Part shown: positions 545 to 18,125 of the stretch, piece after piece
How positions within the stretch are numbered: the first letter of the stretch is position 1
Layout: the number at the start of each line of letters is the position of its first letter
Source: a virus
DNA: 25,837 nt
IMG/VR virus record: IMGVR_UViG_3300043569_000189
Span: 1-25,837 of that record
Direction: 5' to 3' (one strand)
Program-made: the position numbers and the translations under genes
The notes under the pieces: generated by a model
The model's database searches: none
What the model saw: only the letters and a program-made list of their open reading frames with translations
What the model was told of the DNA's origin: nothing

Positions 545-553
545 CTCAAATTC
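487..553 (-). repeat. IS left end, copy 1 (identical to 15832-15898 in inverted orientation)
   Basis: These 67 bp are identical to the left end of the complete element. They contain an inner 8-bp stem with a 4-nt loop at 516-535 (CTGTCGGC / GCCGACAG), and outer 7-bp arms GAGCGCA (504-510) and TGCGCTC (541-547). Purine/pyrimidine internal loops separate the two stems. Such subterminal hairpins are what Y1 transposases (TnpA) recognise in IS200/IS605 elements. Confidence 0.9.
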
Positions 554-1163: not shown

Positions 1164-1419
1164 CACTGGTGTCCTCCTGGGGGCTCAATTGCAGCTTAGA
1201 GAGGATTCGGCTATATTCATTGAAGATCAAATTTGACAATTCCTCAATAGACGCTTTGAATTCCTCGGCCAACTTTTCGGCGTCTTCGATTGACTTACAT
1301 CCCCATTCATTGAGAAGCTGATTCTTGATCGCCTCTAGCTGTCCCTCGAGCTTGAAATACTGGAGTTCGGCATTTTTGATCTTCTCTTTCAATTCAAGAA
1401 GCTCTTTTTCAGTTCCCAT
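1150..1419 (-). CDS. Small coiled-coil protein between the Mre11-like nuclease and the Rad50 C-half
   Basis: This is an 89-residue protein starting at ATG 1419 behind AGGAG (8 nt spacing), overlapping the end of the nuclease gene by 11 bases. It is almost all charged helix with heptad-like leucines (starting MGTEKELLELKEKIKNAE). It has a single Cys in an NEWGCKS turn near the middle and an acidic tail. The position between the two ATPase halves suggests it is a detached piece of the Rad50 coiled coil or an accessory of the complex. Unlike a real zinc hook it has no CxxC. The function is inferred from position only; I do not recognise a family. A longer in-frame upstream extension has a weaker start and is unlikely. 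Confidence 0.7.
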   Translation of the reverse strand: MGTEKELLELKEKIKNAELQYFKLEGQLEAIKNQLLNEWGCKSIEDAEKLAEEFKASIEELSNLIFNEYSRILSKLQLSPQEDTSDEEG

Positions 1420-2392: not shown

Positions 2393-3267
2393 ATCGGACA
2401 AACCTCTGGAAGAATCTCATTCCATCGTGTTTTCAGTTGATCAAGAGTGGTTTTGGTCTTGTTAAGGTCTGATAGCACTCTCCTGAATTCGTTCAATATG
2501 CCTCCAAGTCTATTATAACGCTGAATCAGGTCTTCCTTTTGGGAAATTTTTTGATCTAATCTGCTAATCCTCTTGGACAGTTTCATATACACCTTCAAGG
2601 TCTGTATCTCATATTGGATCTTGTAGTGATCTTCTATATTTCGGGTGAGATTGTTTAAGGATTGTTTTAACTTTTCCAGTTTCTCTTCCTTTCGTTTCAA
2701 CCTCTGTATCTCATTGTAGATCTGAAGAAGGTCCGGGTATCGAGACAATTCTATGGATATTGCCTCGGCTTGAGATTTCAAGTGGACTATGTCAGCGTTT
2801 AGCCGCTTGATCTTCTGTCTAAGGAGATCTTCAGCTATGAAGATCACATTCATACGGGTGATCTTCTGAATGTAGTTGGCCCGCTCTCCGGGTGAACTTC
2901 CCAGCAAGAATGGTGGATCGGATTGGAACTGAAAATTGATTCGGTCCACTTTGAAGAAATCAGAAATCTCACGGGGCACTTGGAGCTTCACAGCATTGAG
3001 GACTTGTCCATTTATCACGTATACATTCCGTTTATCATCCCGAATCCTTGAGACCCACCCGTGATTGGTCTTAAGTAGAACTTCAGTTGGTCCTCCCCAG
3101 TGAGACCGGAATGATTCACCACTGGGCCGATTCCAAAACAACCACCTTAAGGCTCGAACCACTGCGGTCTTTCCCGAGTCATTATCGCCAAGGAGAGCAG
3201 TGATCCCAGCAGGGATTTGAATCTCGGAGTGATTATGACTCTGGAAGTTTCGGAGAACAAGTTTCAT
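2350..3267 (-). CDS. Rad50/SbcC/gp46-like ATPase, N-terminal half ending at a half zinc hook
   Basis: This is the N-terminal lobe of a Rad50-type ATPase. It starts with KLVLRNFQSH, has Walker A GDNDSGKT at residues 27-34 and a Q-loop-like NFQFQSDPPFLL segment. About 150 residues of coiled coil follow. It ends 12 residues after CPIC (C290, C293), the Rad50 zinc-hook motif. In a standard SbcC the chain would turn and run back to the C-terminal ATPase lobe. Here it stops, and the missing lobe is encoded at 546-1163. The start overlaps the upstream gene by 4 bases (ATGA), indicating translational coupling; no good SD sequence is present. Confidence 0.92.
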   Translation of the reverse strand: MKLVLRNFQSHNHSEIQIPAGITALLGDNDSGKTAVVRALRWLFWNRPSGESFRSHWGGPTEVLLKTNHGWVSRIRDDKRNVYVINGQVLNAVKLQVPREISDFFKVDRINFQFQSDPPFLLGSSPGERANYIQKITRMNVIFIAEDLLRQKIKRLNADIVHLKSQAEAISIELSRYPDLLQIYNEIQRLKRKEEKLEKLKQSLNNLTRNIEDHYKIQYEIQTLKVYMKLSKRISRLDQKISQKEDLIQRYNRLGGILNEFRRVLSDLNKTKTTLDQLKTRWNEILPEVCPICGRPLNSSIYPKM

Positions 3268-3845
3268 TTCATTACCGAAATGGTCTCGGGAAAAACGTTG
3301 TTTACAAAATCGTCCAGCTTCATTATCGCATAAGATAGTGTTAAGTTTGGACTAAACAAAATTACAACCGGAATGTCTGCCTGGCTTCGAATGGAAATGA
3401 AGGACACAATCCCCGCGTCCGAAGCCATATGTGCCGGAAGGCATATCATCTCATGTCCCCGATCCTTCTTATAGATTAAGATGGGATATCGCTTATGTGC
3501 TTCATCAAAGCAAAGATGTTCCAAATCTTTCAGAAACTTAACCAGAATTCCGTTATCTCGAGCATTGTCAGAGATGGAATCAGGGGTTTTGTATCCACGC
3601 TTGATCTCAATTACAGCGCAATCGGTGAGACCTTTTCCCTCTGGTTTTACCGCTATCACATCACCCCACCCGGGTGTATCAGGTCTTTTCCCTCTAGCCC
3701 AAGAACCACTTCCAGGTGACCGCCAAAATATGGAACCATCCTCTCCATTGCTCCACCACAGAGAGAGCTTCCTACATATAGCTCTCTCAAATGATGTACC
3801 CTTATTCTTGCTGTCCTTCCTCTTCTTCCTCTTCGCCTGGGTCAT
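3264..3845 (-). CDS. PD-(D/E)XK-type nuclease, Holliday-junction-resolvase-like
   Basis: This is a basic N-terminus followed by a restriction-endonuclease-fold pattern: GTSFERAICRKLSLWW (helix with the first Glu), a RSPGSGSW segment, GDVIAV (catalytic Asp) and AVIEIKRGY (E-x-K). That order fits RecU/Hjc-like resolvases and phage recombination endonucleases, and the position between RecA and the gp46/47 module agrees. It probably resolves branched DNA made during replication. ATG 3845 is preferred (193 aa) because the upstream TTG at 3878 has no ribosome site. ATG 3845 itself has only a weak site and lies inside the end of the recombinase gene, so coupling is likely. The exact class is uncertain. 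Confidence 0.78.
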   Translation of the reverse strand: MTQAKRKKRKDSKNKGTSFERAICRKLSLWWSNGEDGSIFWRSPGSGSWARGKRPDTPGWGDVIAVKPEGKGLTDCAVIEIKRGYKTPDSISDNARDNGILVKFLKDLEHLCFDEAHKRYPILIYKKDRGHEMICLPAHMASDAGIVSFISIRSQADIPVVILFSPNLTLSYAIMKLDDFVNNVFPETISVMK

Positions 3846-4941
3846 AGGGAAGCTCAACTGTATCAGATGAATTCGCAAATCTGGGCAATCTCTTTACAGT
3901 GAATTGATCTTCCACTTCATTCCATATGCGGATCACTTGTTGCTTAAGAGCATTTTGGAGGCCCCTCTTCTCCACTATGGCAATGGACTTCTCAAGAGAC
4001 TTACTGAGCTTCTCGTCTTCCACGCAATACACTTGTGCGCCAGTCATCTCTTTTACATACTGGAGATTTTCCCGTATGTCGTCAATCCCATAGTCATAGA
4101 GAATGGTCAATGAGGCGGAGCGAAATGGCTTCCAGATGGAGCTTTTGAACACCTCCACCTGGACTTCCACCCCAACTATTCTTGAGATGGTTTTTGATCC
4201 AATAGTTTTCTCTTGCTTAATGGGCTTGGGCTTAGATGTCCGGAGCCTCAGGCTGGAATAGAATCCAATTGCCTCCCCTCCAGGGGATATGTATTTTTGT
4301 CCGAAAGGACCGGCTTCCAAGTTTTGCCGAATCTGGTTGGAACAGATGAGGAGATACCCCTTACTGGCCAGAACGCGGCAGGTTTTTCTCAGCTCCTCGC
4401 TGAATTCTTTGGCGCGTCGCATTCCCATCTTGTCTTCATCTTCCATTTCCATCTCGGTAGACAAAGCAGCTAGAGAATCAGCAAATATGGCACTGGGACC
4501 ATCCGGGTTCTCAGGCTCCCACTTGCGGATGGATCGAAAGACCTCGGAAATAGTGTTAGGCATGGTGTAGGAGATCTTCTCTTTCTCTACCCCAAAGAGA
4601 GTGGCAAATTGAAAGTTTAGCCGTCCCTCAGGATCGTGGAACATAACATTGCCTCCTTCACGGAGGATCCTCCCCGCTATTTCACACAGCAAGACAGTTT
4701 TTCCAGACCCCGAAGGACCGAACACTTCAACCATTATGCCGAAAGGGATTCCACCCTCTGGATAGATCCCGCCTGATATGGCTAGGTCCAAGAGAGTGGA
4801 TCCCGTGCTTATAATTCGTACAGGACAGACCTCTTTCTTTGAATCCTCCTTCCCTCTGTCTTTAGCTTGTTCAATCCGCTTCGATATTTGTTCATCCAGT
4901 GGCACTTCTTGATTTGGTGGATTCTTTCTCTGGAACCGCAT
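3802..4941 (-). CDS. RecA/UvsX-like strand-exchange recombinase
   Basis: This is a 379-aa recombinase with the RecA core: STGSTLLDLAISGGIYPEGGIPFG, Walker A GPSGSGKT at residues 75-82, a HDPEGR segment at the position of the catalytic Glu, Walker B AIFADSLAAL near 150, and a SNQIRQN loop. The C-terminus is strongly acidic (a run of Glu), as in RecA and UvsX tails. It should form filaments on single-stranded DNA and drive recombination-dependent replication and repair with the SSB and gp46/47-like genes next to it. It starts 2 bases after the SSB stop, with GAGGGA about 9-10 nt upstream. Confidence 0.95.
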   Translation of the reverse strand: MRFQRKNPPNQEVPLDEQISKRIEQAKDRGKEDSKKEVCPVRIISTGSTLLDLAISGGIYPEGGIPFGIMVEVFGPSGSGKTVLLCEIAGRILREGGNVMFHDPEGRLNFQFATLFGVEKEKISYTMPNTISEVFRSIRKWEPENPDGPSAIFADSLAALSTEMEMEDEDKMGMRRAKEFSEELRKTCRVLASKGYLLICSNQIRQNLEAGPFGQKYISPGGEAIGFYSSLRLRTSKPKPIKQEKTIGSKTISRIVGVEVQVEVFKSSIWKPFRSASLTILYDYGIDDIRENLQYVKEMTGAQVYCVEDEKLSKSLEKSIAIVEKRGLQNALKQQVIRIWNEVEDQFTVKRLPRFANSSDTVELPYDPGEEEEEEGQQE

Positions 4942-4943
4942 CT

Positions 4944-5960
4944 TTAGTCATCCCTCGTGCATTCATCCCAAACCTTGCATGTTTCGCATTCCGGTCTACT
5001 TCCACCATCTCTCTTATATACGTAACCATGCGGACACTTTTTTTCTCCAGATTCGGGAACTTTATCAATAACAAGTTTTATTCGTCTTGTGGGCGAATCA
5101 TCTAGTGGGACATCGTCATCTTCATCTTCATCATAACTCTCTCGACTTAAAGTGACTTTGCTACTGAAGGACTTAATGTCTTCATCCTCTTGCTGGTTGT
5201 CTGATTGCTTATTATAACTTGTAAGATCACCTTCAAAAAACAAATCCTTGATTTCGTCATATCCCATCACCACAAGCATTTCATCTAAGTTCGGAACTTT
5301 GTCAAGTATGGACATGTCATATTGCTTTTGTCTGGGTTCAAAGTCAATACGAATTGCGGTGCCAAATGTCTTCTTAGCGAAAACTTGCTCATCAAATCGT
5401 ATTCGGAGAGTGTAGCCATCTTCCAGAGATGGAAATCTTTCGTAATCTGGATCTGCCTCCAACTCCTCTCTTAAAAGCTTCCCAAAGTGATGAAAAGCTA
5501 CATTCCAAATGTGTATGGTTTCATCATGATCTTTCGACTTCTTTGGAATAACGACATAAAGGTTCCGTCCTGATGGTTTAAGTGGCTGCATACTATTCCA
5601 GGTAACACCTTTTTTAAGCTGAACGGAGCGGTATTCACAGATTGGACATTTAGAACCCACAGATGACGGACACACAATGACTTTGTTCTCAATTCCCACG
5701 CCTCTGTGAATTTTGAACGGTCTTGTATACCAAAGGGATCCTGGTGTTGCAATATCTTTTGCATCGTCTCTGTCTGGATGCTTAGGGTCAGTCACTCTGT
5801 AAGGCAAAAAGTCTAGCCATACTACTGAGCCAGGTTTCGGATTGAAAAGCTGAATTCCACGTGGTAAGTTCAAGTATCCAACCAAGTTGCTACTGGATTT
5901 GTCTATGCTCGATAGTATTTTTCCAACGAAATATTTCTTAGTGCCATTTGCTGTTTTCAT
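4944..5960 (-). CDS. Phage single-stranded DNA-binding protein (gp32-like)
   Basis: This is a 338-aa protein typed as SSB from composition and position. It has an OB-like N-terminal half (KYFVGKILSSIDKSSSN, LPRGIQLFNPKPGSVVWLDFL). A zinc-type CPSSVGSKCPICEY cluster follows. A long acidic stretch (DEDEDDDVPLDD) precedes a C-terminal Cys motif, CPHGYVY ... CETCKVWDEC. The order of zinc cluster, OB-like core and acidic tail is the pattern of many phage SSBs. ATG 5960 is chosen because GAGGAGG stands 6 nt upstream. The frame stays open 37 codons further but without a site. It overlaps the membrane-protein gene by 23 bases. Being next to the recombinase, it probably coats the single strands on which RecA/UvsX loads. 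Confidence 0.85.
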   Translation of the reverse strand: MKTANGTKKYFVGKILSSIDKSSSNLVGYLNLPRGIQLFNPKPGSVVWLDFLPYRVTDPKHPDRDDAKDIATPGSLWYTRPFKIHRGVGIENKVIVCPSSVGSKCPICEYRSVQLKKGVTWNSMQPLKPSGRNLYVVIPKKSKDHDETIHIWNVAFHHFGKLLREELEADPDYERFPSLEDGYTLRIRFDEQVFAKKTFGTAIRIDFEPRQKQYDMSILDKVPNLDEMLVVMGYDEIKDLFFEGDLTSYNKQSDNQQEDEDIKSFSSKVTLSRESYDEDEDDDVPLDDSPTRRIKLVIDKVPESGEKKCPHGYVYKRDGGSRPECETCKVWDECTRDD

Positions 5961-6147
5961 CGTCTTCCTCCTCTTGTTGTTCGTCCTTAGTTTCATAGTA
6001 TATCTTGTAGTCTTCCAGTGTTCGCAAAAACGTCGTAAGCCATCCTGCCATCTGTGCTTTACTCCAGACATAGATTAGAAACGGTATTACGATCATTAGA
6101 ATCGTAACAGCTAGTATCGCTATAAGGATTATCGTCCAGAAGTCCAT
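5938..6147 (-). CDS. Small single-span membrane protein
   Basis: This 69-aa protein has one clear hydrophobic helix (residues about 4-28, ending in YVWSK), a short amphipathic part, then an acidic tail rich in Glu/Asp/Gln. There is no cleavable signal peptide pattern; an N-out or N-in single-pass anchor is likely. It has a ribosome site GAGGG about 9 nt before ATG 6147 and follows the 156-aa gene by 3 bases. Its 3' end overlaps the SSB start by 23 bases. I do not recognise a family. Being embedded among replication genes, it may tether replication or recombination proteins to the membrane, but that is only inference from position. Confidence 0.75.
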   Translation of the reverse strand: MDFWTIILIAILAVTILMIVIPFLIYVWSKAQMAGWLTTFLRTLEDYKIYYETKDEQQEEEDDENSKWH

Positions 6148-6150
6148 GCT

Positions 6151-6621
6151 CTAATCCCTCTTGTTTAGTTTCTTCGCAATTCTACTGTCTACATATTTCC
6201 CTTTTATGTTCTCCCACTCTTTCTCCAAATTTCTAGGAACCTTTGGGCCGGCAAAGTATTGTTGACCATGCAGTTTCACTAAGTTCTCTAGTGCAGATTT
6301 TTTAGTCTCAAGCGCTTTAACGGCTGCAGATGCTATCTCGTATTCGTATTTGGCATCAATGTAACGTTTCATCGCTTCTTGGTATTCAGGTTGCATAGCT
6401 ATCATTCTGTTTAGTTCCGATTCGGTCATTTTTCTTTCTGAGCTTTCTCGTATTCTCTTGTCTAGCTTGGCTTCTACAAGTTTTATCTCTTCCTTGTATA
6501 TGTCCATCTCTTTTCTCTTGTCAGCACAATACATCCCGTATTCAAGCATCAGGTATGGTTGTCTAAGCCACTCAATGTCTAATGCAGATTCGTCTATGCT
6601 TATGTCTTCCAGGTAGTTCAT
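6151..6621 (-). CDS. Coiled-coil phage protein, possible recombination-mediator analogue
   Basis: This 156-aa protein is mostly charged helix (residues 30-120). It ends in a conserved-looking LHGQQYFAGPKVPRNL motif near residues 117-132 and a basic tail. It follows the clamp loader with an ATGA overlap and has AAGGG about 9 nt before the start. There is no catalytic motif. The position just before SSB and RecA suggests a loader or mediator role like that of T4 UvsY, but this is inference from order and size, not from recognisable homology. Confidence 0.75.
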   Translation of the reverse strand: MNYLEDISIDESALDIEWLRQPYLMLEYGMYCADKRKEMDIYKEEIKLVEAKLDKRIRESSERKMTESELNRMIAMQPEYQEAMKRYIDAKYEYEIASAAVKALETKKSALENLVKLHGQQYFAGPKVPRNLEKEWENIKGKYVDSRIAKKLNKRD

Positions 6622-7538
6622 CTGGCTATTCCCTTATAGACTGTATAACATGCTAGCACTAGTCTTGACTTTCCTTCATAGAATGGTGTTGAGAATACTT
6701 CCATTATCGCTCCTGCAATTGGATTATCTTCTTTCATCAGTATAGACGCACAGTAGTTTAAGACGTGTCTCCTTACATTTTCTACATCTTTAGTGTCTAG
6801 TCTCTCTAGTATCTTACATATGCCCTTCCATCCGTTTTGTTTCATTAGTGCTCTACATAGTTCTATACTAGCAGCTTCATCAGATAAGAGTTTTATGACC
6901 GCATTCTCTCTTTCATCCTCTGGAAGTTCTAACACTCTTTCCAATAGTTGCAATGCCGTTCTCGGTAAACCTTGACTCTCCTCTATTATTTGATCATAGA
7001 TTGCCTTAGTTAGTCTCTCACCTTCAGCTCTCACCACCCTTCTCAAAAGAGTCAACATATCATCATAACTAAGCCTCTCCAACATGTAGGTAGCACACCG
7101 GCTTCTTACAGTCGGAGGAAGCTTTTCCGGCTGTGTGGTGCAAAGGAAGAAGAACGTATGACTGGGAGGTTCCTCCAAAAGCTTGAGGAAAGCATCAAAT
7201 GCCTCCCTTGTCATCTGGTGAGCTTCGTCTATGATCCAACAACGACTCTTAGAGCCCTGCCAAAGGGGAGGAAACTCTGTAATGTTCCAGATCTCCCTCA
7301 CCGTATCAATGCCACGGAAGTTCGCAGCATTCATCTCAATGAAATCATTTCCTCTGGCCCCCAGATAGTCAGCACAAATCCGGGCCAGAGTCGTCTTTCC
7401 AACCCCAGTGGGTCCAGCAAAGAGAAATGTATGAGGAGGATCCGGTTTGGAAATAGCATTCTTAAGGGACTCTATGACCTCAGCTCTTCCAATCACTTCA
7501 TCAAAGCTTTTGGGTCTATATTTCAGATGGAGTGGCAT
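6618..7538 (-). CDS. DnaX-like clamp-loader AAA+ ATPase
   Basis: This is a 306-aa AAA+ protein with LKYRPKSFDEVIG at the N-terminus, Walker A GPTGVGKT at residues 42-49, Walker B WIIDEAH at 101-107, sensor 1 FFLCTTQ and the SRC arginine-finger motif at 146-148. It is short and lacks the DnaX zinc module and tau C-terminus. It probably forms a homo-oligomeric loader for the clamp encoded at 10219-11265. CAGGAG lies 7 nt before the ATG, and a TATAAT promoter sits just upstream at 7571-7576. The promoter makes this gene the head of the clamp loader, mediator, SSB, RecA and nuclease block. Confidence 0.95.
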   Translation of the reverse strand: MPLHLKYRPKSFDEVIGRAEVIESLKNAISKPDPPHTFLFAGPTGVGKTTLARICADYLGARGNDFIEMNAANFRGIDTVREIWNITEFPPLWQGSKSRCWIIDEAHQMTREAFDAFLKLLEEPPSHTFFFLCTTQPEKLPPTVRSRCATYMLERLSYDDMLTLLRRVVRAEGERLTKAIYDQIIEESQGLPRTALQLLERVLELPEDERENAVIKLLSDEAASIELCRALMKQNGWKGICKILERLDTKDVENVRRHVLNYCASILMKEDNPIAGAIMEVFSTPFYEGKSRLVLACYTVYKGIAR

Positions 7539-7570
7539 GTATTCTCCTGAAACATTTCCCTTCTACATTG

Positions 7571-7576
7571 ATTATA
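7571..7576 (-). promoter_or_regulatory. Putative -10 box before the clamp-loader gene
   Basis: A perfect TATAAT on the minus strand in the context GGCTATAATCAAT lies about 33 nt before the clamp-loader ATG. The same GGCTATAAT core precedes the helicase-loader gene (14229-14234). The -35 region is weak; an AT-rich stretch lies upstream. Confidence 0.6.
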
Positions 7577-7612
7577 GCCAATATTTCAAACACATTGAGA
7601 TTTTTTATATGT

Positions 7613-10222
7613 TCAAAAATTTTCCCAAAAGCTTTTCTGAGATAACGGCTCATTAACTCCAGCCAATTCAAATTCAACCTTAAGCGGGACGTTGATCCAT
7701 GACCAATTTTTCACCAATTTATCTTCCGCCAAATCTTTTAGTTCCCTTGCACACCATGTTACTTCATCTGGTGGACATTCTACAACTAGTTCATCATGGA
7801 CCTGGCTTACAAGCATGCTCTTCATTTTATTTTGTTTTAATTTTTTGTTGAACTCAATCAGGACCCAAAGCAAACAGTGAAAGGCAGTTCCCTGTATAGG
7901 GTAATTAGTAACTTGTTTACGATCCATCAATCCACTGCATCTAAATCCAGTCAAAAGCTCTATGTATCCGTGTCTTACATAGAACCTCCAGATCTTGTCT
8001 TTCCACAGAGTATATTGGCGATATCGTTCATTCCAAAATGAATCTTCGACCTTACGAACATGCTCTATAAAGTTATCGAAAGATATCAGCTCACCTTTAC
8101 GTCCAAGCTTAACTAGTCCTTTGTTCTTAAGATGGATCAAAGCTGGTGTTCCATCTTTGAGCTTTGCCATAGTTGCCCACTTGATCAAATTCCTGGCGCA
8201 ATTTGCATAGTAATCTCCATAAAACTCTGGAAAAACAAATGAGTTCTTAGCAGCTTGTCTCAAAATTGATTCATCTGGATGATGCTTATCAAGACTATCA
8301 AGCATGAAAAGTTCTATAGCCATATCACGGTGCATATCCCCAGCAATAACGTCATCTATAAGTTTCGAATCCTGAGTATATACACATGCAATCCTGACCT
8401 CTATTCCAGAGAAATCCATAGACAAAAATTGATTTCCAGGTCTCGGTATCAAAGCCCTTCTGCAAATCTGCATGAGCTCTTTGTCACGTTTTGGAATGTT
8501 CTGAAAGTTTGGAGCTTCAGATGAACTCCTAAAGGTTCTGGTGGTATGGAGATGGAAAAAAGGATGAATAATCCCATTGACTTGTTCTCTCAGATAGAGA
8601 TCGAGATAGGCCTCCCTAATTTTTTTGAGCTTGCGGATTTCAAGAATCTTATCCAACTCTGATATGCCTAGCTCCCTCAAAGCTTCATCATCCGTAGATC
8701 CACGTCCAGAACCTGTAGTCTTTACTGGTTGAATTTTTTTGTATTGATAGAGAAATTTAGACAATTGGTCGCTGGAATTGACATTAAATCTGGCCGGTCC
8801 AATGAACCGCTGCCACTCCCTCCCAAACTCAGATTCTCTGACTTCATTGGAAAGCTGGTCAATCCTATTAGCAAGTTCTCGTTTCTTAGTTTCACAGTCT
8901 TCAACATCTACCCTAATTCCATTTTGCTCCATATCGGCTAAGGCCAAGAGACCATCATGAAAGAACCAGTATGCCTTGAGAAGAGATCGATTTTGTAACA
9001 TTTGTCTTTTCTGAATCTGGAACAAGCGATAAGTAAGCAATGCATCCATTCCACAATACGTTAGAAGATCTCGGATTCGTTCAGGAGATGATAAAAGCTG
9101 TTCTACACGATTTTTAGAATTGGAATTTTTGCTGTCGGATTGAAGGAAAAGTGCAACTGATTCATCATAGTCAGCTATGCCAAAATTGACGTATGATTGG
9201 AATTTTAATCCAACAATACCAGGTCGATTATCTAATATGTGAGCTGCAAGCATGGTGTCCCACATCCATCCTTTTACCTCACATCCAAGGATGGTTCTGG
9301 ACCATCTTTCTTCATACTTGAGATTATGTGCTATCTTACGAATGTTTGGATTAGTTAAAACGTTACAGAGTAATTTTTGGTATCCTGAATCCGAGCAATT
9401 TTCTGCAGTTATTGGAGCAATTAGAGATGCAAATGCTTGATCTGGGCTAACAGCAATTGCTACAGCCACGATTCTATGACCATTGGCCCAGGGCTTGAGT
9501 CCAGTAGTCTCATAATCAATAGCAATTATGGAATCGTTGGGAATTGTCTCTAGCCAAGATAAACCGTCCATAATCTTGATTAACTTGGACTCATCATCAA
9601 ACTTGGGGAAAGGTTCCTCTAGCTTAGCTAGGGCTTCTCTCAAGTGTTTAGTCCAGACATTGGATACCTCAGGTCCCTTAGCCCTCAAGACAAAACTGGG
9701 GTGATAAGTTGGACAAATCCATGCCTTCATTTTCCGGTCTGGTATTTTCCATCCGGACCACCTCTCCATGCCACCAATATCCTTCTTCCAAGAGCTTCCA
9801 ATCACAGACTCCACAGCACAAGCTCCAAGGAGAAGGATCAACTTTGGTTTAGCTTTCTCTATGGCAGAGAGGACCTTCCCTCTACAGCAAGCTATCTCCC
9901 TCCTCGTTGGGGTTCGATTGTCTCCGGACGGGCCAACCGGTCTACAGTTGACTGCATTTACGCTGATACAATCCTCAAAAAGGTCTATCCCCAGCCCTTC
10001 AAGGGTTCGTCTAAGGAGATTCCCAGCTCGACCTTGCCAGGGCTTTCCACATGCATCCTCCGACTCCCCTGGTGCCTCTCCAACGATCACAATACGCTTT
10101 TTTCCGGATCCATATGGGAGAATGCAAGGAGACTTGGCCTTTTGAAAAAGACCACACTCCTTGCAGCTCCCCTCTACTCCATTCAGGGAATTGGGAGGAA
10201 AAATGATAAGTGGCTGGATCAT
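7613..10222 (-). CDS. Fusion protein: family-4-like uracil-DNA glycosylase + 3'-5' exonuclease + family A DNA polymerase
   Basis: The 869-aa replicative polymerase has three parts. Residues 1-205 are a uracil-DNA glycosylase: GEAPGESED near 48-56, VNCRP near 91-95 and HPSFVLR near 174-180. Cysteines at 20, 23, 93 and 112/113 match the four iron-sulfur ligands of type 4 enzymes. Residues about 225-410 are a DnaQ-like exonuclease (D236-x-E238, HNLKYEE, YCGMDALLTYRL). Residues 410-869 are the PolA fold: motif A DFSGIEVRI from D603, motif B RQAAKNSFVFPEFYG, motif C QVHDELVVE. There is no 5'-3' exonuclease domain. It overlaps the clamp gene by 4 bases (ATGA) with no clear SD, so it is probably coupled to it. 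The glycosylase part may remove or sense uracil ahead of synthesis. Confidence 0.95.
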   Translation of the reverse strand: MIQPLIIFPPNSLNGVEGSCKECGLFQKAKSPCILPYGSGKKRIVIVGEAPGESEDACGKPWQGRAGNLLRRTLEGLGIDLFEDCISVNAVNCRPVGPSGDNRTPTRREIACCRGKVLSAIEKAKPKLILLLGACAVESVIGSSWKKDIGGMERWSGWKIPDRKMKAWICPTYHPSFVLRAKGPEVSNVWTKHLREALAKLEEPFPKFDDESKLIKIMDGLSWLETIPNDSIIAIDYETTGLKPWANGHRIVAVAIAVSPDQAFASLIAPITAENCSDSGYQKLLCNVLTNPNIRKIAHNLKYEERWSRTILGCEVKGWMWDTMLAAHILDNRPGIVGLKFQSYVNFGIADYDESVALFLQSDSKNSNSKNRVEQLLSSPERIRDLLTYCGMDALLTYRLFQIQKRQMLQNRSLLKAYWFFHDGLLALADMEQNGIRVDVEDCETKKRELANRIDQLSNEVRESEFGREWQRFIGPARFNVNSSDQLSKFLYQYKKIQPVKTTGSGRGSTDDEALRELGISELDKILEIRKLKKIREAYLDLYLREQVNGIIHPFFHLHTTRTFRSSSEAPNFQNIPKRDKELMQICRRALIPRPGNQFLSMDFSGIEVRIACVYTQDSKLIDDVIAGDMHRDMAIELFMLDSLDKHHPDESILRQAAKNSFVFPEFYGDYYANCARNLIKWATMAKLKDGTPALIHLKNKGLVKLGRKGELISFDNFIEHVRKVEDSFWNERYRQYTLWKDKIWRFYVRHGYIELLTGFRCSGLMDRKQVTNYPIQGTAFHCLLWVLIEFNKKLKQNKMKSMLVSQVHDELVVECPPDEVTWCARELKDLAEDKLVKNWSWINVPLKVEFELAGVNEPLSQKSFWENF

Positions 10223-11265
10223 TTGACCAAAGCTACAACATATGTCTGTCTTGATTCTTCATCCTCCTTTTGAAGGATTAGCACGCCCACTGAATTCAGC
10301 TCAGCCAATCCAAATTTGTTGCAATTATCAAATTCGTTCAAAAGGAACTTATGGTCTATCCGGATATCAAAGATTAAGTCATCATCGTCACATTCCAGTT
10401 GTTCATGAAATTTACCGTAGCTACTTTCCCCTTCTACACTCAAGATCAATCCTTCCTTCTTTATCCTCACAAAATTTTCATCGTTAAGGAAAAGAGACGC
10501 TCTCTTTATCACCGGTTCTATCATTGGAAGTGTTGATCTATCATAGAGAACCGCACCACTTACACTACTCCAAAACCAACCAAGTTCATGAAAAGTTATT
10601 CCAGCAGGTCTTACTCTCACAATCAAACTACTTCCTTCAGAGCCAAACTCCAGTATGTCCTCGGATACCTTTAGCAAGTTAAATTCATACTTACTTAAGC
10701 ATTGAGCCACATCAATGTCAAAAACCAGACTTCCATTAAATTCGAATGAGTGAAATTCCGACTTCCACGCCCTTGGACCATTAGCAGCTTCTAATCCGAA
10801 TGGGGTAAGATGGACATATTTGAGATGTGGGTTACTAACACTTTTTGATGCTATGGATGCTCCTTTCTTCAACAAACTAGGGAAACTTTTAGGCAATAGT
10901 ATGCTTGTATCAAATTTCGGTTCATCGGTCCACATAGAGTTAATTTCTGTAGGATGGAGAGTAAAGGAACAATCTATACTTCCACATTTCATTGTCATGG
11001 TAGATCCGGTTACCCCAATTTTCACTGTTTGATCGGAAGGCAAAGATCTAACTATCTCGAAGAATTGTTTGTAAAGCGTAATGCCTAAGCAAGAGTTTAT
11101 TGATTCTGGAAGCGGGACCTTCGCACCTACTGAAAACGATTGAGATACTAGACCTATTTGGCTAATCATCAACTCATATGGTATTATAGCTCCTTCTAGT
11201 GAAGATACTGGTTCCATCAAACTGACTATGTCTTTCAGTTCACTCGAGTTTATTTCCACCCGCAT
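10219..11265 (-). CDS. DNA polymerase sliding clamp (divergent DnaN-like)
   Basis: This 348-aa protein has three-domain beta-clamp proportions. Domain 3 carries the clearest pattern: SGAVLYDRSTLPMIEPVIKRASLF, then RIKKEGLILSVEGES, DIRIDHKFLLNEFD, and a final TYVVALVK like the DnaN C-terminus. Domains 1 and 2 are weaker matches. It should encircle DNA and tether the polymerase encoded immediately downstream. GGAGGAGG stands just upstream of ATG 11265. The start overlaps the 212-aa gene by 26 bases. The call rests on length, the domain 3 pattern and the location between loader and polymerase functions. Confidence 0.85.
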   Translation of the reverse strand: MRVEINSSELKDIVSLMEPVSSLEGAIIPYELMISQIGLVSQSFSVGAKVPLPESINSCLGITLYKQFFEIVRSLPSDQTVKIGVTGSTMTMKCGSIDCSFTLHPTEINSMWTDEPKFDTSILLPKSFPSLLKKGASIASKSVSNPHLKYVHLTPFGLEAANGPRAWKSEFHSFEFNGSLVFDIDVAQCLSKYEFNLLKVSEDILEFGSEGSSLIVRVRPAGITFHELGWFWSSVSGAVLYDRSTLPMIEPVIKRASLFLNDENFVRIKKEGLILSVEGESSYGKFHEQLECDDDDLIFDIRIDHKFLLNEFDNCNKFGLAELNSVGVLILQKEDEESRQTYVVALVK

Positions 11266-11939: not shown

Positions 11940-13508
11940 TCAAAAATTTGTAAAGCTCCACAAAACCGGTCTCCCTATCTGAAGTCTCCCTAGAAGCCAA
12001 ACAGGTTTTAGCGGGTCATAGTCAGATTCTCTAACCACGATTTCGTTGATCCGTATAATACCAATTCTCTTTTCCTCTACACTTTGGTTTAATCCATACA
12101 TAGCGCTCACATGGGCAAATTTACGTTTATCTTCACTAAAATCACTCATTGTAAGAAGTTCTCTTTTGTATCCTTGGGCCTTAATTTGGGTAGCTGTAAT
12201 CACAAGACAATTAAATTCTTGAGATATAGCACGTAATCTCTGCCATGTTCTTCCTTGCTGATGTCGATAGTCCATTCTGTAAGAATCTGGATCTGGAGCC
12301 ATTATATCTGCATAGTCAATTATGATTACATCTGGGACAAATCCTTCATTGCGCTTCAAAAAGAGAATCTTGTTTCTAACTTCCCTAGTGTTAAGTGTCT
12401 CATTCGGATATGTAAGTAATCTGAAGGATCCTTTGTGTGTTCTCCCAAACTTGGTAAGTAATTCGTGGGCTTCTTTGTCAGTCAAAGCAGGAACTGGAGG
12501 TTGCCATCTAAGCCATGGAAAACCTTCGATCTCATCACAGTTTCTACATGTCTTATGGTTCTGGAAGTCATTGGCCACACTAACCAGCATATCCATTGTC
12601 AATGTTTTCTTCTTGTCAGCATTAGATGGAAATACTTGCTCACCAAAGTCTTCTCTTACTTGCTTATCACACATATCTGTCAAATTCTTCCAGCAATCCA
12701 ACTCAGGTATCCACATTCCCTTGCAATACCAAGGCTCATTGGATCTTCTAGCAAGCCAAATAGCTATTCTTCTCAGTTGTTGTTCCTCGGTCATATCTCC
12801 AGCTTGGAAGAACAAAACCTTGGAACCGGTTCGAATCGCATTCATCGCAAGTTCTATCAACATAAAAGTTTTACCAATTTTCTCCCTCCCCATCAAGGCC
12901 ACAAATGCCCCCCGGTAAAACTCTCGGTCCCAGAATTTCCCGAGGGCCTTTGGGGTTCGAATGAGAGGGTCTGCCCTCTCAGCAAAGGCCTTTTGGATCT
13001 TAGGAAACGTATCCTCCGAAAAAGGATCGATGGGGATTCCAAACTCCGATTGAGCATCAATGTCAATTCCTTCCCAGAGTGCTGACTCGGCTTTATCAAT
13101 TTCATTTCGTTCTAAACATTCAGCGGCTTTGTTCATCTGAAAGATAATTCTTCGTTTTCGCAGGTATTGAATCGATTGATCTATCAGGTAGTCAAGGTCA
13201 GGATCTTCGTTGCTGGCAAGAGAAGCATAAATAGATGCTAAGACTGTCTCAATCCATTCTGCCATATCTTTGCTGAGTTTGGAAAGATGGGAATAGAAGA
13301 TAGCTCTAATGTTTTCTCGTGGAGGCTTAGCATATTCGTTCCAGTAATTCAAGCACCATCTGGTTATAGTTCTAGCAGCATCGGACTCTAGAATCTTGGG
13401 ATCTAGGTACGGAAGGACCTTCTTGGTAAATTCTTCCGAGAGGATTAGAGCTTCAACAATTTTCCGTTCAATGAATTCCAGTGCCTCTTCTTCAAAAGCC
13501 ATGATCAC
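11940..13508 (-). CDS. DnaB-like replicative helicase with a Cys-containing insertion
   Basis: This 522-aa RecA-fold helicase has an N-terminal helical domain (residues 1-150), Walker A GREKIGKT at 207-214, Walker B PDVIIIDYADI near 393-402, the ITATQIK motif near 437-443 and a KRKFAHVSAMYGLNQ segment near 462-475, as in DnaB arginine-finger regions. A roughly 110-residue insertion after strand 2 (about 255-365) holds five cysteines (262, 272, 280, 321, 324), including CRNC, and may bind zinc. It should be the hexameric fork helicase loaded by the AAA+ protein just upstream. GTG 13508 and ATG 13502 are both possible. The gene begins 7 bases after the loader stop. Confidence 0.92.
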   Translation of the reverse strand: MIMAFEEEALEFIERKIVEALILSEEFTKKVLPYLDPKILESDAARTITRWCLNYWNEYAKPPRENIRAIFYSHLSKLSKDMAEWIETVLASIYASLASNEDPDLDYLIDQSIQYLRKRRIIFQMNKAAECLERNEIDKAESALWEGIDIDAQSEFGIPIDPFSEDTFPKIQKAFAERADPLIRTPKALGKFWDREFYRGAFVALMGREKIGKTFMLIELAMNAIRTGSKVLFFQAGDMTEEQQLRRIAIWLARRSNEPWYCKGMWIPELDCWKNLTDMCDKQVREDFGEQVFPSNADKKKTLTMDMLVSVANDFQNHKTCRNCDEIEGFPWLRWQPPVPALTDKEAHELLTKFGRTHKGSFRLLTYPNETLNTREVRNKILFLKRNEGFVPDVIIIDYADIMAPDPDSYRMDYRHQQGRTWQRLRAISQEFNCLVITATQIKAQGYKRELLTMSDFSEDKRKFAHVSAMYGLNQSVEEKRIGIIRINEIVVRESDYDPLKPVWLLGRLQIGRPVLWSFTNF

Positions 13509-13515
13509 CTAGTTC

Positions 13516-14193
13516 CTACTCAAGGTCTTTGAGAAACTCAGATTCGCTTTTGGTGATGTGAACGATGTGATCTTTACACATTTCACTTATTCTTGTTGGA
13601 ATTTTGTCATTTGATAATCTCTCAGCTAGTTCCTTTAGCGAAAAGTTGGAGGTAAATACCGTTGGTAGCACCCAGTTATAGCGATACTCGATTATCTGGA
13701 AAGTCGTCTCATATGCCCATGGTGTCATCCGTATTGCTCCAAGGTCGTCAAGGATTACGTACTTGGCTTTTTGAATTTGGTCGACAGGATCAATGTTTTG
13801 TTGTTCAGCATATTCTTCATCAAGGACAATTACGTCGAATGTTTTCAATTTGCTATACAGGGATCTCAGATTGCTATAGAGTAATGGCAACGACACAAAC
13901 CTGAATTCTTTGGCAAATTTAGGAAGGTCACTCGAGAGTGCTTTTATGATTTCATCTCTACTGGAAGGCAAGTTGGCTTTCATCTTGACCATGGTTCCAG
14001 CCATAATTCTTACAGCCATAACGGTCTTTCCACTCCCCGGTGGTCCCCAGAGGTAAACACTCTCACCAAGGTGGTTCGAGAGGGGCCCATCCAGAGAAAA
14101 ATCTTCCTCCTTGAGAAGAGAAATTACTCTTGGAGGAACCCCACAAAGCTCCAGTAGCATTGTCCTCGAGACTTCTCTATGTCTCCTGTCCAT
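13516..14193 (-). CDS. DnaC-like AAA+ helicase loader
   Basis: This protein is about 225 aa. Walker A GPPGSGKT is near residues 50-57 from ATG 14193, Walker B is KYVILDDLGAI, sensor 1 is PTVFTSNFS, and there is a C-terminal arginine pair (TRISEM). This is the pattern of DnaC/DnaI and phage helicase loaders. Its product should bring the helicase encoded next to it onto DNA opened by the initiator at 14261-15733. ATG 14193 is preferred because AAAGGA stands 5-7 nt before it. An upstream TTG at 14223 adds ten residues but lacks a ribosome site and lies only about 5 nt from the TATAAT box. Confidence 0.92.
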   Translation of the reverse strand: MDRRHREVSRTMLLELCGVPPRVISLLKEEDFSLDGPLSNHLGESVYLWGPPGSGKTVMAVRIMAGTMVKMKANLPSSRDEIIKALSSDLPKFAKEFRFVSLPLLYSNLRSLYSKLKTFDVIVLDEEYAEQQNIDPVDQIQKAKYVILDDLGAIRMTPWAYETTFQIIEYRYNWVLPTVFTSNFSLKELAERLSNDKIPTRISEMCKDHIVHITKSESEFLKDLE

Positions 14194-14228
14194 CCTTGTT
14201 CCTTTCGTATTTTCGGTTTTCAATATTC

Positions 14229-14260: not shown

Positions 14261-15733
14261 TTACCACCAATCACGGAATCCTGGCTCCCAGCCACGAAAA
14301 CGCAAGTTCGGGTTCACTCCTAGCGGACGTATCTTCCCATCCCAGCCAAGGGATCTGGGGTCTAGTTCTATTGACTCCACATTGTCCAGCCATGAATAGT
14401 CTGGTTTGGGTTTGGTTGTGGAATCCTTGGTCGGAGGATTTTCAACCACTTGGCGCTTCTTGAACAAGACAAGCTTGGAAGGGTCATCGTTCCATCTTTC
14501 CTGGAGGAGCCAGTTTCCTGCATCTGGGATGAATTGGGGCTCCTGCCATCTTTCTGATTTCTTCTGTGCCTCTATGGCACCGAGGATCTGACCGAGAGTT
14601 GGACGTTTGTCCCTCGGTCTCTTGCATATCTTGGACCACGCCATCCTGGCTTTTCCAAGACAGTCGATCTTGGGGTAGAACTTTCTGAACGTTTCAAACA
14701 TGGTTGGGGTAATGGGCTCGTTCCAGAAATCCTGGATGTCATACTCACTCATCCAGAGTGGGGGGATTTTAACTTGACGCTTTTTGCGGGGTTTATTCTC
14801 TCCAGATGGCTTGGAGGGGGGATTGTCTGTGCTTGATTTTTTGTCTTCAAATTTTTCTTCCTCGGGATTGGAGGATTTGGACTTGGATGACTTGATCGAT
14901 CCAGTTTCTCCATTTCCACTAGAAGGGGGATTTGGAGAGGGGTCTGGACATGGAAAATACTTCGTATTTTCCATATTATGATTATAATCATTATTGTTTT
15001 TATTATCAGTACTGTTGTTATATATAATACAGGGAGTATCGAAGATACTCCCATGTCCCAATTCGCAATCCTGGCCCTCTTCAAAACCCGCGCCGGCTCC
15101 ATCTGGTGTTGTAAGTGTTGAATATTGTTGTGGTTTTTGATCATTTGCATTTCCTAATTGCTGGTTTTGCTGGTTTTGTTGGTTTTCTTCAATTAGGCTT
15201 TTTTCTGGTTGCTGATTTTTCGCAATTAGGCTTTTCCCCACTTCAATTAGGCTTTTTCCCACTTCAATTAGGTTTTTTCCTATTTCAATTAGGCTCTCTT
15301 CCGGTAATTGGTTACTAGATCTAATCGATTTTTTCTTCGTATTTTTCATTGCTTCGTAGTATGTTCCATTGCGTGGTGGGTTCATTAGCTCAAGGTCATC
15401 CTTTAGTATTTGAGTTACTATCATATCATCTGGAAATTTGTTCTTTTCTTCAGTGAGGGTCCATATTGTGCCAACGGTCCGTTTGGTGAGTGAATTTCTG
15501 TAGTAGAATTTCTTAGCATAGCCATGCTTTCTCAGTAGTCTTAGGTATAGTCCGACCTTAGATAAATCCTCCTTGGTTTTTCCATCTAGTAGAAGTTTCA
15601 AGTCTTCCATTTTGAAGAATTTTGGACACACATCTATTGCAACTGTTAAGAATCCTTTGAGCTTAAGGTCCAATTGTGGGTCATGTTTATATATTATTCC
15701 AGTTTCCTTGCTATTTTTTCCTGCAGTGTCCAT
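14261..15733 (-). CDS. Replication initiator / replisome organiser (lambda O-like architecture)
   Basis: This is a 490-aa protein in three parts. Residues 25-115 look like a winged-helix DNA-binding domain (GFLTVAIDVCPKFFKMEDLK, then GLYLRLLRKHGYAKKFYYR). Residues 135-325 are disordered: SLIEVGK heptads (146-170), Gln/Asn runs, then Ser/Pro/Lys. Residues 330-430 match the C-terminal module of phage O-type and DnaD-like proteins (FYPKIDCLGKARMAWSKI, ILGAIEAQKKSERWQEPQFIP, NWLLQERW), which in that class contacts the helicase or its loader. The start ATG 15733 has AAGGAGG 6 nt upstream. The loader and helicase follow directly. The low-complexity part coincides with iterons and an AT-rich tract in the DNA, as in lambda O. 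The family call is by architecture, not by a confirmed match. Confidence 0.75.
   Translation of the reverse strand: MDTAGKNSKETGIIYKHDPQLDLKLKGFLTVAIDVCPKFFKMEDLKLLLDGKTKEDLSKVGLYLRLLRKHGYAKKFYYRNSLTKRTVGTIWTLTEEKNKFPDDMIVTQILKDDLELMNPPRNGTYYEAMKNTKKKSIRSSNQLPEESLIEIGKNLIEVGKSLIEVGKSLIAKNQQPEKSLIEENQQNQQNQQLGNANDQKPQQYSTLTTPDGAGAGFEEGQDCELGHGSIFDTPCIIYNNSTDNKNNNDYNHNMENTKYFPCPDPSPNPPSSGNGETGSIKSSKSKSSNPEEEKFEDKKSSTDNPPSKPSGENKPRKKRQVKIPPLWMSEYDIQDFWNEPITPTMFETFRKFYPKIDCLGKARMAWSKICKRPRDKRPTLGQILGAIEAQKKSERWQEPQFIPDAGNWLLQERWNDDPSKLVLFKKRQVVENPPTKDSTTKPKPDYSWLDNVESIELDPRSLGWDGKIRPLGVNPNLRFRGWEPGFRDWW
14951..14973 (-). other. Perfect hairpin with GAA loop, inner side of the AT-rich tract
   Basis: Ten-bp arms TGGAAAATAC (14951-14960) and GTATTTTCCA (14964-14973) flank a 3-nt loop that reads GAA on the minus strand, closed by C-G. 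C(GAA)G loops are known to make exceptionally stable DNA mini-hairpins. Confidence 0.8.
14974..15031. other. AT-rich candidate DNA-unwinding tract
   Basis: 58 bp with 9 G/C bases, containing the 14-bp perfect palindrome ATGATTATAATCAT (14978-14991) and a TATATATAAT run. It encodes Asn/Asp-rich linker of the initiator. Confidence 0.65.
15032..15052 (+). other. Perfect hairpin with GAA loop, outer side of the AT-rich tract
   Basis: Nine-bp arms GGGAGTATC (15032-15040) and GATACTCCC (15044-15052), with loop GAA on the plus strand closed by C-G. Together with 14951-14973 it brackets the AT-rich tract; the two GAA loops are on opposite strands. Confidence 0.8.
15153..15293. repeat. Iteron array, core CAATTAGG
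   Basis: Five direct cores start at 15190, 15223, 15244, 15265 and 15286 (spacings 33, 21, 21 and 21, close to whole numbers of helical turns). Each is followed by a GCTTTTTCC-like tract. One inverted core, CCTAATTG, is at 15153-15160. Because 21 bp is seven codons, the array also encodes SLIEVGK-type heptads. Three 9-bp TGGTTTTGC-like repeats lie between, at 15162-15188. Confidence 0.85.
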
Positions 15734-15798: not shown

Positions 15799-15840
15799 CT
15801 ACTTCTTTCTACCTCGCTTGAGAATTTCATCGAATTTGAG
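15799..15840 (-). pseudogene. 3' remnant of a small gene interrupted by the TnpB element
   Basis: Reading minus strand from the IS edge, CTC AAA TTC codes LKFDEILKRGRKK and stops at TAG 15801. It lies between the IS and the initiator start and has no start codon of its own. It is the likely C-terminus of the ORF whose first part is at 17181-17071 or so. The two parts are in frame if the right junction is at 17070/17071 or 17067/17068, and out of frame if the element ends at 17072. Confidence 0.5.
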
Positions 15841-15898
15841 CGCAGGAGACTGTCGGCTTCAGCCGACAGAGGAATGCGCTCTTGACACCTCCTTTCTT
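15832..15898 (+). repeat. IS left end, copy 2
   Basis: Identical over 67 bp to 487-553 (inverted). Inner hairpin arms CTGTCGGC (15850-15857) and GCCGACAG (15862-15869), loop TTCA. Outer arms GAGCGCA (15838-15844) and TGCGCTC (15875-15881). The identity begins with GAATTTGAG, partly target-side sequence, and includes the TTGACA box. Confidence 0.9.
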
Positions 15899-15912
15899 AT
15901 ATGTGATATAAT
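15882..15912 (+). promoter_or_regulatory. Putative tnpB promoter, possibly leaderless
   Basis: TTGACA at 15882-15887 and TATAAT at 15907-15912 with a long 19-bp spacer. Transcription would begin about at the ATG (15919), and no SD sequence precedes it, so tnpB may be translated from a leaderless or nearly leaderless mRNA. Confidence 0.45.
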
Positions 15913-15918
15913 ATAATC

Positions 15919-17037
15919 ATGAAAACCGTTAAAACTGTCAAATGCAAACTTCAAGTTAATGCTAAACAAGCTGCTATCTTTCTGGAAACGTTGAACCGGT
16001 TTGCTGCTGCCTGCAATGATATTCTGCAGGTTTCGTTGAGTAGCAAAACAACTAACAAGATAAAGTTGCACCATCTTTGCTACTACACCATTAAAGAGAA
16101 ATACGACCTGCATGCTAACCTTGTTATCCGTGCCATTGCACGTGTAACTGGAGCCATCAAAAAGAAACATAAGCAACCTAAACCCAAGAAGTTTAACCCT
16201 ACCAGCATGAGTCTTGATGCTCGCACATTCTCTTTTATTGAGAAACGGGAAGAGGTTTCTATCGCCACCATCAACGGTAGACTTAAACTTAAACTTGATA
16301 TTGGCGACTTCCAGCGCGGTCTTCTTGCTGGGCAAAAGCCTACCGCCGCTACTTTGTGTTACAACCGCAGAACCAAAGAATTCTATATCCATATCGTCGT
16401 GAACCGCGAAGTCCCGTTTCCGCCGAAAGACGGCAACATCATCGGCGTTGATCGTGGCATTTATAATCTTGCTACCACATCTACTGGTTTGAAGTTTTCC
16501 GGACGGCAGGCCATGCACATCCGAAAGCGATACGCTCGGTTGCGGCAGGCGCTTCAGACCAAAGGCACGAAGGGGGCCAAACGCCTCTTGAGACGGCTGT
16601 CGGGAAAGGAGCGCCGCTGGATGGCTGATCTCAACCACAGGATTTCTAAGGCGATTGTCAACCTTTGCAAGTTCGGTGACGTGATTGTTATGGAAAACTT
16701 GAAACATATCCGAGACCGTATTCGTGTTGCTAAAAAACAGCGGTGTATTCAACACACCTGGGCCTTTGGACAACTTGGTCAATTCATCGAATACAAAGCC
16801 GCTGAACGTGGCATTGCTGTGGTTTATGTCAATCCCAAACATACTAGCCAACGCTGTCCAAAGTGTGGGTTCGTTGCTAAAGGCAATCGCAAGGGTCATA
16901 TCTTTCACTGCACCTCCTGTGGTTTTAGTGGTCATGCAGATATTGTAGCCGCAACCAATATCCGTCAGGTCTATCTTGAGGCGCTGACGGATGGGCCTTT
17001 GTCAACAGGCCCTGAAGCATCAACCGCTTGCGGTTAG
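15919..17037 (+). CDS. tnpB: TnpB RNA-guided DNA endonuclease
   Basis: This is an intact 372-aa TnpB. RuvC-like catalytic residues are D178 (NIIGVDRGIYNLA), E259 (VIVMENLKHI) and D341 (SGHADIVAATNI). The zinc ribbon is C313-x2-C316 and C331-x2-C334 (CPKCG, CTSCG). The N-terminal wedge/REC part covers about residues 1-170. All catalytic positions are kept, so it should be able to cut DNA using an omega RNA made from its own 3' end. Such cutting favours element retention after TnpA excision. It is on the opposite strand to the surrounding operon. It shares little with the other TnpB in this window. A long minus-strand ORF over it is a shadow. Confidence 0.96.
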   Translation: MKTVKTVKCKLQVNAKQAAIFLETLNRFAAACNDILQVSLSSKTTNKIKLHHLCYYTIKEKYDLHANLVIRAIARVTGAIKKKHKQPKPKKFNPTSMSLDARTFSFIEKREEVSIATINGRLKLKLDIGDFQRGLLAGQKPTAATLCYNRRTKEFYIHIVVNREVPFPPKDGNIIGVDRGIYNLATTSTGLKFSGRQAMHIRKRYARLRQALQTKGTKGAKRLLRRLSGKERRWMADLNHRISKAIVNLCKFGDVIVMENLKHIRDRIRVAKKQRCIQHTWAFGQLGQFIEYKAAERGIAVVYVNPKHTSQRCPKCGFVAKGNRKGHIFHCTSCGFSGHADIVAATNIRQVYLEALTDGPLSTGPEASTACG

Positions 17038-17207: not shown

Positions 17208-18125
17208 CTAGCTCAGAAGGTCCTGAGCTAGCTTTCTCGCATCACTAAGTGGAAGAGATCCCGGGTCCTTTATCCAGTCTGGAAGCCTCCCCACTTTTGC
17301 TTTCTTTCCGAGCATTCCAAGTTCCGAGGCTAATTTACTGGCCTGAGCTTGAGCTTTAGGTTCATTGTCAAAGAGAATGACTATTCGATCAAAAAGTGAT
17401 GCTAGAATTCTAACTTGAGAGATCTTATATCCAATGCCGAATGTTGCGGCGGATCTTTTTCCTAATTTCCAAACGTCAAAAATACCTTCTGCCACAATAA
17501 TTGAGTTGTAAGATAAAGACTCTGGGTGTAAGTATATAATATCTTTGTGGTTGATGATTTCCTTATGGGTTGGGCATGCTTTATATTTCGTTGGAGATTT
17601 TTCTGTAATGTCTCTAGCTTGGAATGAGACCATTTGGCCTCTCCAGAAGATTGGAGCGAGGATCCTGTACTTAAAATCTAAACTGTCCAGCACTGAAACT
17701 GGCCCGGTTCCCAGGACCCCCCATTCTTTCTCTATTTCTTCAGGATCCAGGCCTCGCTTTTCGAGATACAATTTGTGTGATCTCTGAAGGGGCCCGCATC
17801 CTGATGGCAAATCTAATTGTTTCGGTTGTTTTTGTTGTCTCTTTTCACCTCCTTTTGGGATTGGTATGCCATCGGCTCTTTCTATTATGTCTGAAAGCTC
17901 TCTCCAGTCAAGTCCCTCGGCTAGTTTCCGTATGGTGCTTTTTGTATCGTGCCACCCACACCTCCAGCAATAGAAATATTCTCCATCTATGTTCCAACCA
18001 AGGTGGTATCCAGGGTTTCCCGTGCACCAGGGACATTCTATGTTTATCCACCCCTGGCGGTAGTGTTTATGGCCTGGGGGTGCTGGACGGATTCCGAGAC
18101 AAGAAAGGAGGTAATCCATCTTCAT
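17208..18125 (-). CDS. DnaG/TOPRIM-type DNA primase
   Basis: This is a 305-aa primase. The N-terminal zinc-binding domain has C31-PW-C34 and C53-WR-C56. A charged linker follows (residues 85-105), then an RNA-polymerase-like region and a TOPRIM domain with VAEGIFDVWKLG (E213) and ILFDNEPKAQ (D253, N, E). There is no helicase domain, consistent with a separate helicase gene. It makes RNA primers for the lagging strand. The ribosome site GGAGG is 8 nt before ATG 18125. The site, start codon and first codons form a perfect 11-bp hairpin (18107-18138), suggesting translational control. The gene follows the sigma-like gene in the same operon, and an 8-bp hairpin overlaps its stop codon. Confidence 0.92.
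   Translation of the reverse strand: MKMDYLLSCLGIRPAPPGHKHYRQGWINIECPWCTGNPGYHLGWNIDGEYFYCWRCGWHDTKSTIRKLAEGLDWRELSDIIERADGIPIPKGGEKRQQKQPKQLDLPSGCGPLQRSHKLYLEKRGLDPEEIEKEWGVLGTGPVSVLDSLDFKYRILAPIFWRGQMVSFQARDITEKSPTKYKACPTHKEIINHKDIIYLHPESLSYNSIIVAEGIFDVWKLGKRSAATFGIGYKISQVRILASLFDRIVILFDNEPKAQAQASKLASELGMLGKKAKVGRLPDWIKDPGSLPLSDARKLAQDLLS
17209..17230 (-). other. Hairpin at the primase stop codon
   Basis: Arms TAGCTCAG (17209-17216) and CTGAGCTA (17223-17230), perfect 8 bp with a 6-nt loop, covering the primase stop. No U-tract follows on the minus strand, so it is not a standard terminator. It could protect the 3' end or limit coupling. Confidence 0.5.

Follow-up and report, generated by a model that had tools for sequence, protein, structure and literature searches.

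A putative lambda-type replication origin inside a phage initiator gene carries a mirrored pair of GAA-loop hairpins

Results

The window analyzed here is the whole of a viral contig of 25,837 nucleotides, which represents a partial genome. Its replication genes follow the order DnaG-type primase, initiator, helicase loader, DnaB-like helicase, clamp, UDG-PolA fusion polymerase and clamp loader. The minus strand encodes the primase (17208-18125; PHROG 47, 3e-30; 1e-9 against the dnaG model TIGR01391, under that model's cut-off), the 490-aa initiator (14261-15733), a DnaC/IstB-like helicase loader (13516-14223; PHROG 50, 1e-24; IstB_IS21, 5e-8) and a DnaB-like replicative helicase (11940-13508; PHROG 19, 6e-44). 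The polymerase unites a UDG domain and a family A DNA polymerase with a 3'-5' exonuclease domain in a single 869-aa protein (7613-10222). An IS200/IS605-type TnpB gene (15919-17037; also 15826-15902) lies between the primase and initiator genes on the opposite strand, and an inverted 77-bp copy (97%) of the left end of this element is found at 483-559, far from any TnpB.

We identified the initiator as an ORF with PHROG matches. Its C-terminal part resembles the phage primosomal and replication-initiation families PHROG 9327 (4e-8) and PHROG 9474 (2e-7), and the protein aligns with the initiator of a related locus, L009, at 2.6e-26. Pfam returned no family at E <= 0.1, Phage_rep_O (PF04492) included, the family that lambda O matches at 6e-36. 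An AlphaFold model supports a winged helix at the N-terminus (residues 23-93; 15455-15667, minus strand), presumably the domain that binds the iterons described below. The best model, covering residues 1-151, predicts elements in the order H-E-H-H-E-E with pLDDT of about 77-90, corresponding to moderate confidence. The top matches in a structure search were generic winged-helix proteins with Z scores of only 5-6; in the PDB fold search none was clearly set apart from the many winged helices, and no specific relative was supported.

The word CAATTAGG occurs six times in the 25.8-kb contig, each time within the initiator gene, a count that was never reached in dinucleotide shuffles (mean of 0.96 matches). 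Five direct copies on the plus strand, at 15286-15293, 15265-15272, 15244-15251, 15223-15230 and 15190-15197, are spaced 21, 21, 21 and 33 bp apart, and a sixth core is inverted at 15153-15160 (minus strand). The word search thus recovered the same array that an earlier note on this DNA had described. Leu-Ile is encoded as CTA ATT in all five direct iterons, an agreement with a probability of about 3e-7 by phage codon usage, and the inverted iteron encodes other residues. In its other reading this copy gives QLGN, keeping the DNA word apart from the SLIE peptide repeat. The identical codons, together with an inverted copy that specifies different residues, therefore argue that the DNA word is kept and not the peptide repeat alone. 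A two-iteron DNA pattern searched across viral contigs yielded 95 stretches, which we treated as chance occurrences and reused as background DNA.

Toward the 3' side of the gene, about 120 bp from the inverted iteron over an interval that includes the first of two hairpins, lies an AT-rich tract that is presumably the unwinding element (14975-15031). It holds 9 G/C in 57 bp, is the only place in the whole contig to reach the minimum of 9 G/C per 58 bp, and contains a 14-bp palindrome at 14978-14991; the composition and the palindrome agree with the earlier description, the bounds enclosing 57 bp. The tract is bracketed by two perfect hairpins. The proximal hairpin, on the iteron side (15032-15052), is GGGAGTATC(GAA)GATACTCCC, with a 9-bp stem and a C(GAA)G loop on the plus (non-coding) strand. 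The distal hairpin (14950-14974), ATGGAAAATAC(TTC)GTATTTTCCAT, presents its C(GAA)G loop on the minus (coding) strand. Its stem extends to 11 bp, one more than first noted; the 9-bp proximal stem and the opposite-strand loops were as noted.

Read 5' to 3' on their GAA strands, the hairpins are GGAAAATAC-GAA-GTATTTTCC-ATGTCC and GGGAGTATC-GAA-GATACTCCC-ATGTCC. They are inverted copies that share a loop, a closing pair, a GG/CC foot and a 6-nt 3' tail, and their stems differ at 5 of 9 pairs with every change compensated by pairing. Both tails point outward. That of the proximal hairpin (15053-15058, plus strand) faces the iterons, and that of the distal hairpin (14946-14951, minus strand) faces away from them, its first two bases also taking part in the two outermost pairs of the 11-bp stem. 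This common outer tail, GGACATGG / CCATGTCC, at 14946 and 15058, had gone unmentioned in the earlier note, as had the uniform CTA ATT codons of the direct iterons.

The two hairpins are the only perfect ones of at least 8 bp with a 3-nt loop in 25.8 kb. Synonymous recoding of the linker produced a single such hairpin in 6% of trials and two in 1 of 20,000, which argues that the pair is not a product of chance. The control treats the protein as fixed, and the DNA may in turn have shaped the low-complexity linker. When the region was folded as single-stranded DNA, z was about -5 on both strands, and 1.62 Mb of fetched viral DNA contained one other C(GNA)G hairpin of at least 9 bp. A search for the hairpin-plus-tail pattern returned 54 stretches whose stems were all imperfect (7 of 9 pairs at best), and a search of Rfam returned no match.

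The arrangement corresponds to that of lambda in several respects: a winged-helix-type initiator, iterons inside its gene (four in lambda), an AT tract on the gene's 3' side, an inverted repeat, and a loader gene next to the initiator gene. Together with the adjoining helicase gene, the initiator's C-terminal matches, and relatives that have the same gene and iteron plan, these features make it highly likely that the region is a phage replication origin inside its initiator gene, and the lambda-like origin proposed earlier is well supported. The turn in GC skew follows gene direction, lies near 20 kb and not 15 kb, and does not help to place the origin. The window differs from lambda in its initiator, which belongs to another protein family, in carrying its own DnaB and primase, in the approximately 100 bp that separate the inverted iteron from the first hairpin, in its 3-nt GAA loops with equal outward tails, and in a second, mirrored hairpin between the iterons and the AT tract.

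The paired hairpins had been described as foreign to the lambda layout. For the distal hairpin this does not hold. In lambda gene O (L253) the iterons and AT tract are followed directly by an inverted repeat (559-590), and 80alpha and several related phages likewise have a repeat or hairpin past the AT tract. The description does hold for the mirrored proximal hairpin, which precedes the tract and shares its loop and tail with the distal one; this second hairpin is unusual. The replisome-organizer genes of 80alpha and TP901-1 type phages, which a tblastn search with the L107 initiator finds, resemble the window's in being HTH initiator genes, and Staphylococcus 80alpha has in-gene repeats, an AT tract and a short hairpin. 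Phages of this type lack the GNA hairpin pair, however, and the C-terminal domain of the 80alpha protein, Phg_2220_C, was not found in the window initiator. For Stx phages, the iterons themselves have been discussed as hairpin-forming (PMC7466680).

Tblastn of the initiator protein against phage records gave no match, no relative was found in bacterial genomes, and none was found among the fetched loci that covers this exact origin. Two close relatives (L333 and L334), with a 95% identical polymerase and 89-93% identical DNA over 552-10287, are on contigs that stop at the polymerase gene or within it, before the initiator gene. Helicase relatives (L008, 52%; L009, 45%) and many primase relatives were also fetched, and their origins differ in sequence from that of the window. 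Short repeats lie inside the initiator gene in L009, L010 and L107. In L008, the closest helicase relative, repeat arrays (AGGACAGCTGAG plus AT-rich units, 4890-5250) precede the initiator gene and are not inside it. Probable inteins were seen in the DnaB-like helicase of L114 (5099-7777) and the SNF2-type helicase of L008 (32-2449).

We scanned about 0.96 Mb, made up of the helicase, primase and genome-contig sets, for C(GNA)G hairpins with a stem score of at least 7. Besides those of the window there were seven (in L114, L188, L190, L207, L222, L240 and L338), all of them in the initiator gene, and in at least L114, L188, L222, L240 and L338 the hairpin lies directly past the iterons, the usual setting being iterons followed by an AT tract. 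The primase-based set gave five matches in 150 kb 3' of the primase versus none in 539 kb elsewhere, and the genome-contig set gave a single match, in L338, past iterons and an AT tract. Several of our chance estimates use regions picked after the first matches were seen; L338, which comes from a later and separate set, shows the expected placement. As random viral loci contained 6 such hairpins per 1.24 Mb, the relatives' total is ordinary and it is the placement that stands out. Six of the seven hairpins present their GNA loop on the non-coding strand.

These seven loci resemble the window in having a related primase or helicase and a C(GNA)G hairpin in the initiator gene, but each has one GNA hairpin, without a mirrored equal-tail partner. 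No tail or priming triplet common to the relatives' hairpins was seen, which weakens the case for a conserved primase code, and a second primase scan (A6) returned the same contigs and no new GNA hairpin. In other relatives the corresponding place, 55-81 nt beyond the final iteron, holds strong hairpins with different loops, and many relatives have none. With all loops counted, hairpins past iterons are only mildly enriched (1.7 per kb vs 0.5-1.1), so we make the strong claim for GNA loops alone. Another AT tract, in the related initiator gene of L206 (5964-6078), is bracketed by AGAGTGTAAA(GAA)TTTACACTCT and GTGGCACAA(AAAA)TTGTGCCAC, the first of which also resembles an inverted repeat element of the array.

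Hairpins of the same kind are found in IncQ plasmids. L115, L118 and L116 carry ssi-like hairpins with GAA, GCA or GGA loops closed by C-G; those of L115 and L118 are inverted on opposite strands, and those of L115, separated by about 83 nt and with matched tails directed outward, lie beyond 22-bp iterons. The IncQ order is iterons, 22 bp apart in L115, then an AT-containing stretch and the two 9-bp hairpins. The L115 plasmid, pEcl1-2, has two copies of its iteron and ssi-like region (2586-2935 and 5400-5790). We take these hairpins, which the records leave unannotated, to be ssiA and ssiB, from the description cited next and the RSF1010 sequence. In RSF1010 each strand has a single 40-nt ssi site that the RepB' primase recognizes; the hairpin of the site occupies nt 7-27, a priming motif follows on its 3' side, and both plasmid strands are believed to be replicated in leading-strand mode (PMC4434180).

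The window and the IncQ plasmids are identical in order and strand topology: each strand bears one of two inverted hairpins, which lie beyond the iterons and have tails pointing outward. They also share the C(GNA)G loop and a 9-bp stem. The IncQ sites, however, are GC-rich, have a bulged T, are intergenic, and are read by RepB', whereas the window's hairpins flank an AT tract, lie inside a gene, and occur in a partial contig whose primase gene is of the DnaG type. IncQ tails carry GTGTG; in the window, whose tails read ATGTCC, neither a GTG priming motif at 3-5 nt on the 3' side of the hairpin nor the conserved ssi sequence was found. Because the tail letters and the primase type differ, the window's pair may work like ssi sites without being a member of that group.

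Discussion

In what we consider the best reading, the window contains a lambda-type in-gene origin with a possible ssi-like pair that primes both strands; we offer it tentatively, at a likelihood just short of even. By analogy to lambda O, the winged-helix N-terminus would bind the iterons and the bound array would melt the adjoining AT tract. Each GAA-loop hairpin could then fold on its own single strand, the two on opposite strands, and act as a single-strand initiation site of the IncQ ssiA/ssiB kind. The hairpin and its outward ATGTCC tail would position a primase, either the host's or the phage's DnaG-type enzyme, our candidate hairpin reader, and one primer would be made per strand. Extension from the tail would proceed through the hairpin itself and across the melted tract, and the outcome would be two opposed leading strands that overlap at the origin and leave no gap there.

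Opposite-strand priming sites are plausible, and IncQ ssiA/ssiB would be their precise precedent. A priming role for these particular hairpins is possible, though we lean somewhat against it. The phage primase is of the DnaG type, whereas RSF1010 RepB' is archaeo-eukaryotic-type; a phage that has DnaB and a loader can do without dedicated ssi sites; few arrangements are possible, the matching topology being one of them; and the mirrored equal-tail pair was found in no relative, most relatives with in-gene iterons having no strong hairpin. The fuller proposal, in which a lambda-type iteron/AT module is combined with mirrored, strand-specific priming hairpins of the IncQ ssi type, both leading strands are primed at fixed hairpins within coding sequence, and related uncultivated phages carry single-hairpin versions, is rather unlikely.

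The chief rival retains the same origin but gives the hairpins a structural role, like that presumed for the lambda repeat: they would border the unwinding element and hold the bubble open or mark a helicase-loading zone, with no primase involved. We regard this as a serious possibility, if a rather doubtful one. The inverted repeat directly past the lambda AT tract and the 80alpha hairpin GTCGGG(CAA)CCCGAC are consistent with it, as are the strong hairpins with varied loops 55-81 nt past the iterons in L176, L222, L239, L241 and L219 (also in L234) and the unlike loops that bracket the L206 tract. GAA loop stability would also suit a structural element: no other kind of DNA loop is as stable as GAA, which exceeds GTA by 6 C according to work cited in PMC6479982. 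A structural role nevertheless does not account for the pair's identity in loop and 6-nt tail or for its opposite strand polarity, and the function of the lambda repeat on which it is modeled is not established in the cited literature. The present data separate recognition from structure weakly: equal loops and tails favor recognition, and the variety of loops among relatives favors structure.

The palindromes might instead be double-stranded sites for a dimeric protein, either the initiator or a regulator, with no extrusion. Inverted repeats are classic dimer sites, and the common CTTCG/CGAAG center with its GGACATGG flank could supply the recognized letters. Yet the two half-sites, although different at 5 of 9 positions, remain paired, a pattern better suited to structure than to letter recognition; a 3-nt loop closed by C-G is the hallmark of stable DNA hairpins; and neither hairpin arm resembles the iteron, so we consider dimer binding improbable. 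Extruded C(GNA)G hairpins could also serve as promoters for a phage single-subunit RNA polymerase that makes primer or transcript RNA, since the promoters of the N4 virion RNA polymerase are short hairpins with purine-rich 3-nt loops. This is very improbable: N4 promoter stems are shorter than those of the window, the phage encodes a DnaG-type primase, and the annotated genes of the partial 25.8-kb contig include no single-subunit RNA polymerase. Least probable of all is a REPIN- or MITE-like element that landed in the gene's linker as a mobile insertion, its spacer enclosed by two inverted hairpins that share a 5' foot. The 113 bp do form an inverted-repeat element, and an IS200/IS605-type TnpB gene adjoins (15919-17037). 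Against this reading, a single copy was seen across the window and every fetched locus; the 146-bp element found only weak AT-rich matches, none significant, in phage and plasmid records; the stems have diverged yet remain paired, and the reading frame is open; the hairpins enclose an AT tract of the sort that normally accompanies iterons; and the IS end hairpin has a different sequence.

Should the hairpins of this lambda-type origin prime their strands as ssi sites do, the consequences would extend beyond one phage. The cited literature leaves unsettled how lambda-type origins prime their first leading strand, and it likewise assigns no role to the lambda inverted repeat past the AT tract. 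Strand-specific priming by the hairpins would make this gap directly testable with a compact, defined DNA, and it would link phage in-gene origins with IncQ strand-displacement origins, designs that have been treated as separate. C(GNA)G hairpins past in-gene iterons also constitute a simple sequence signature for origins in uncultivated phages. The mirrored pair suggests that each strand of this origin may carry its own built-in starting point.
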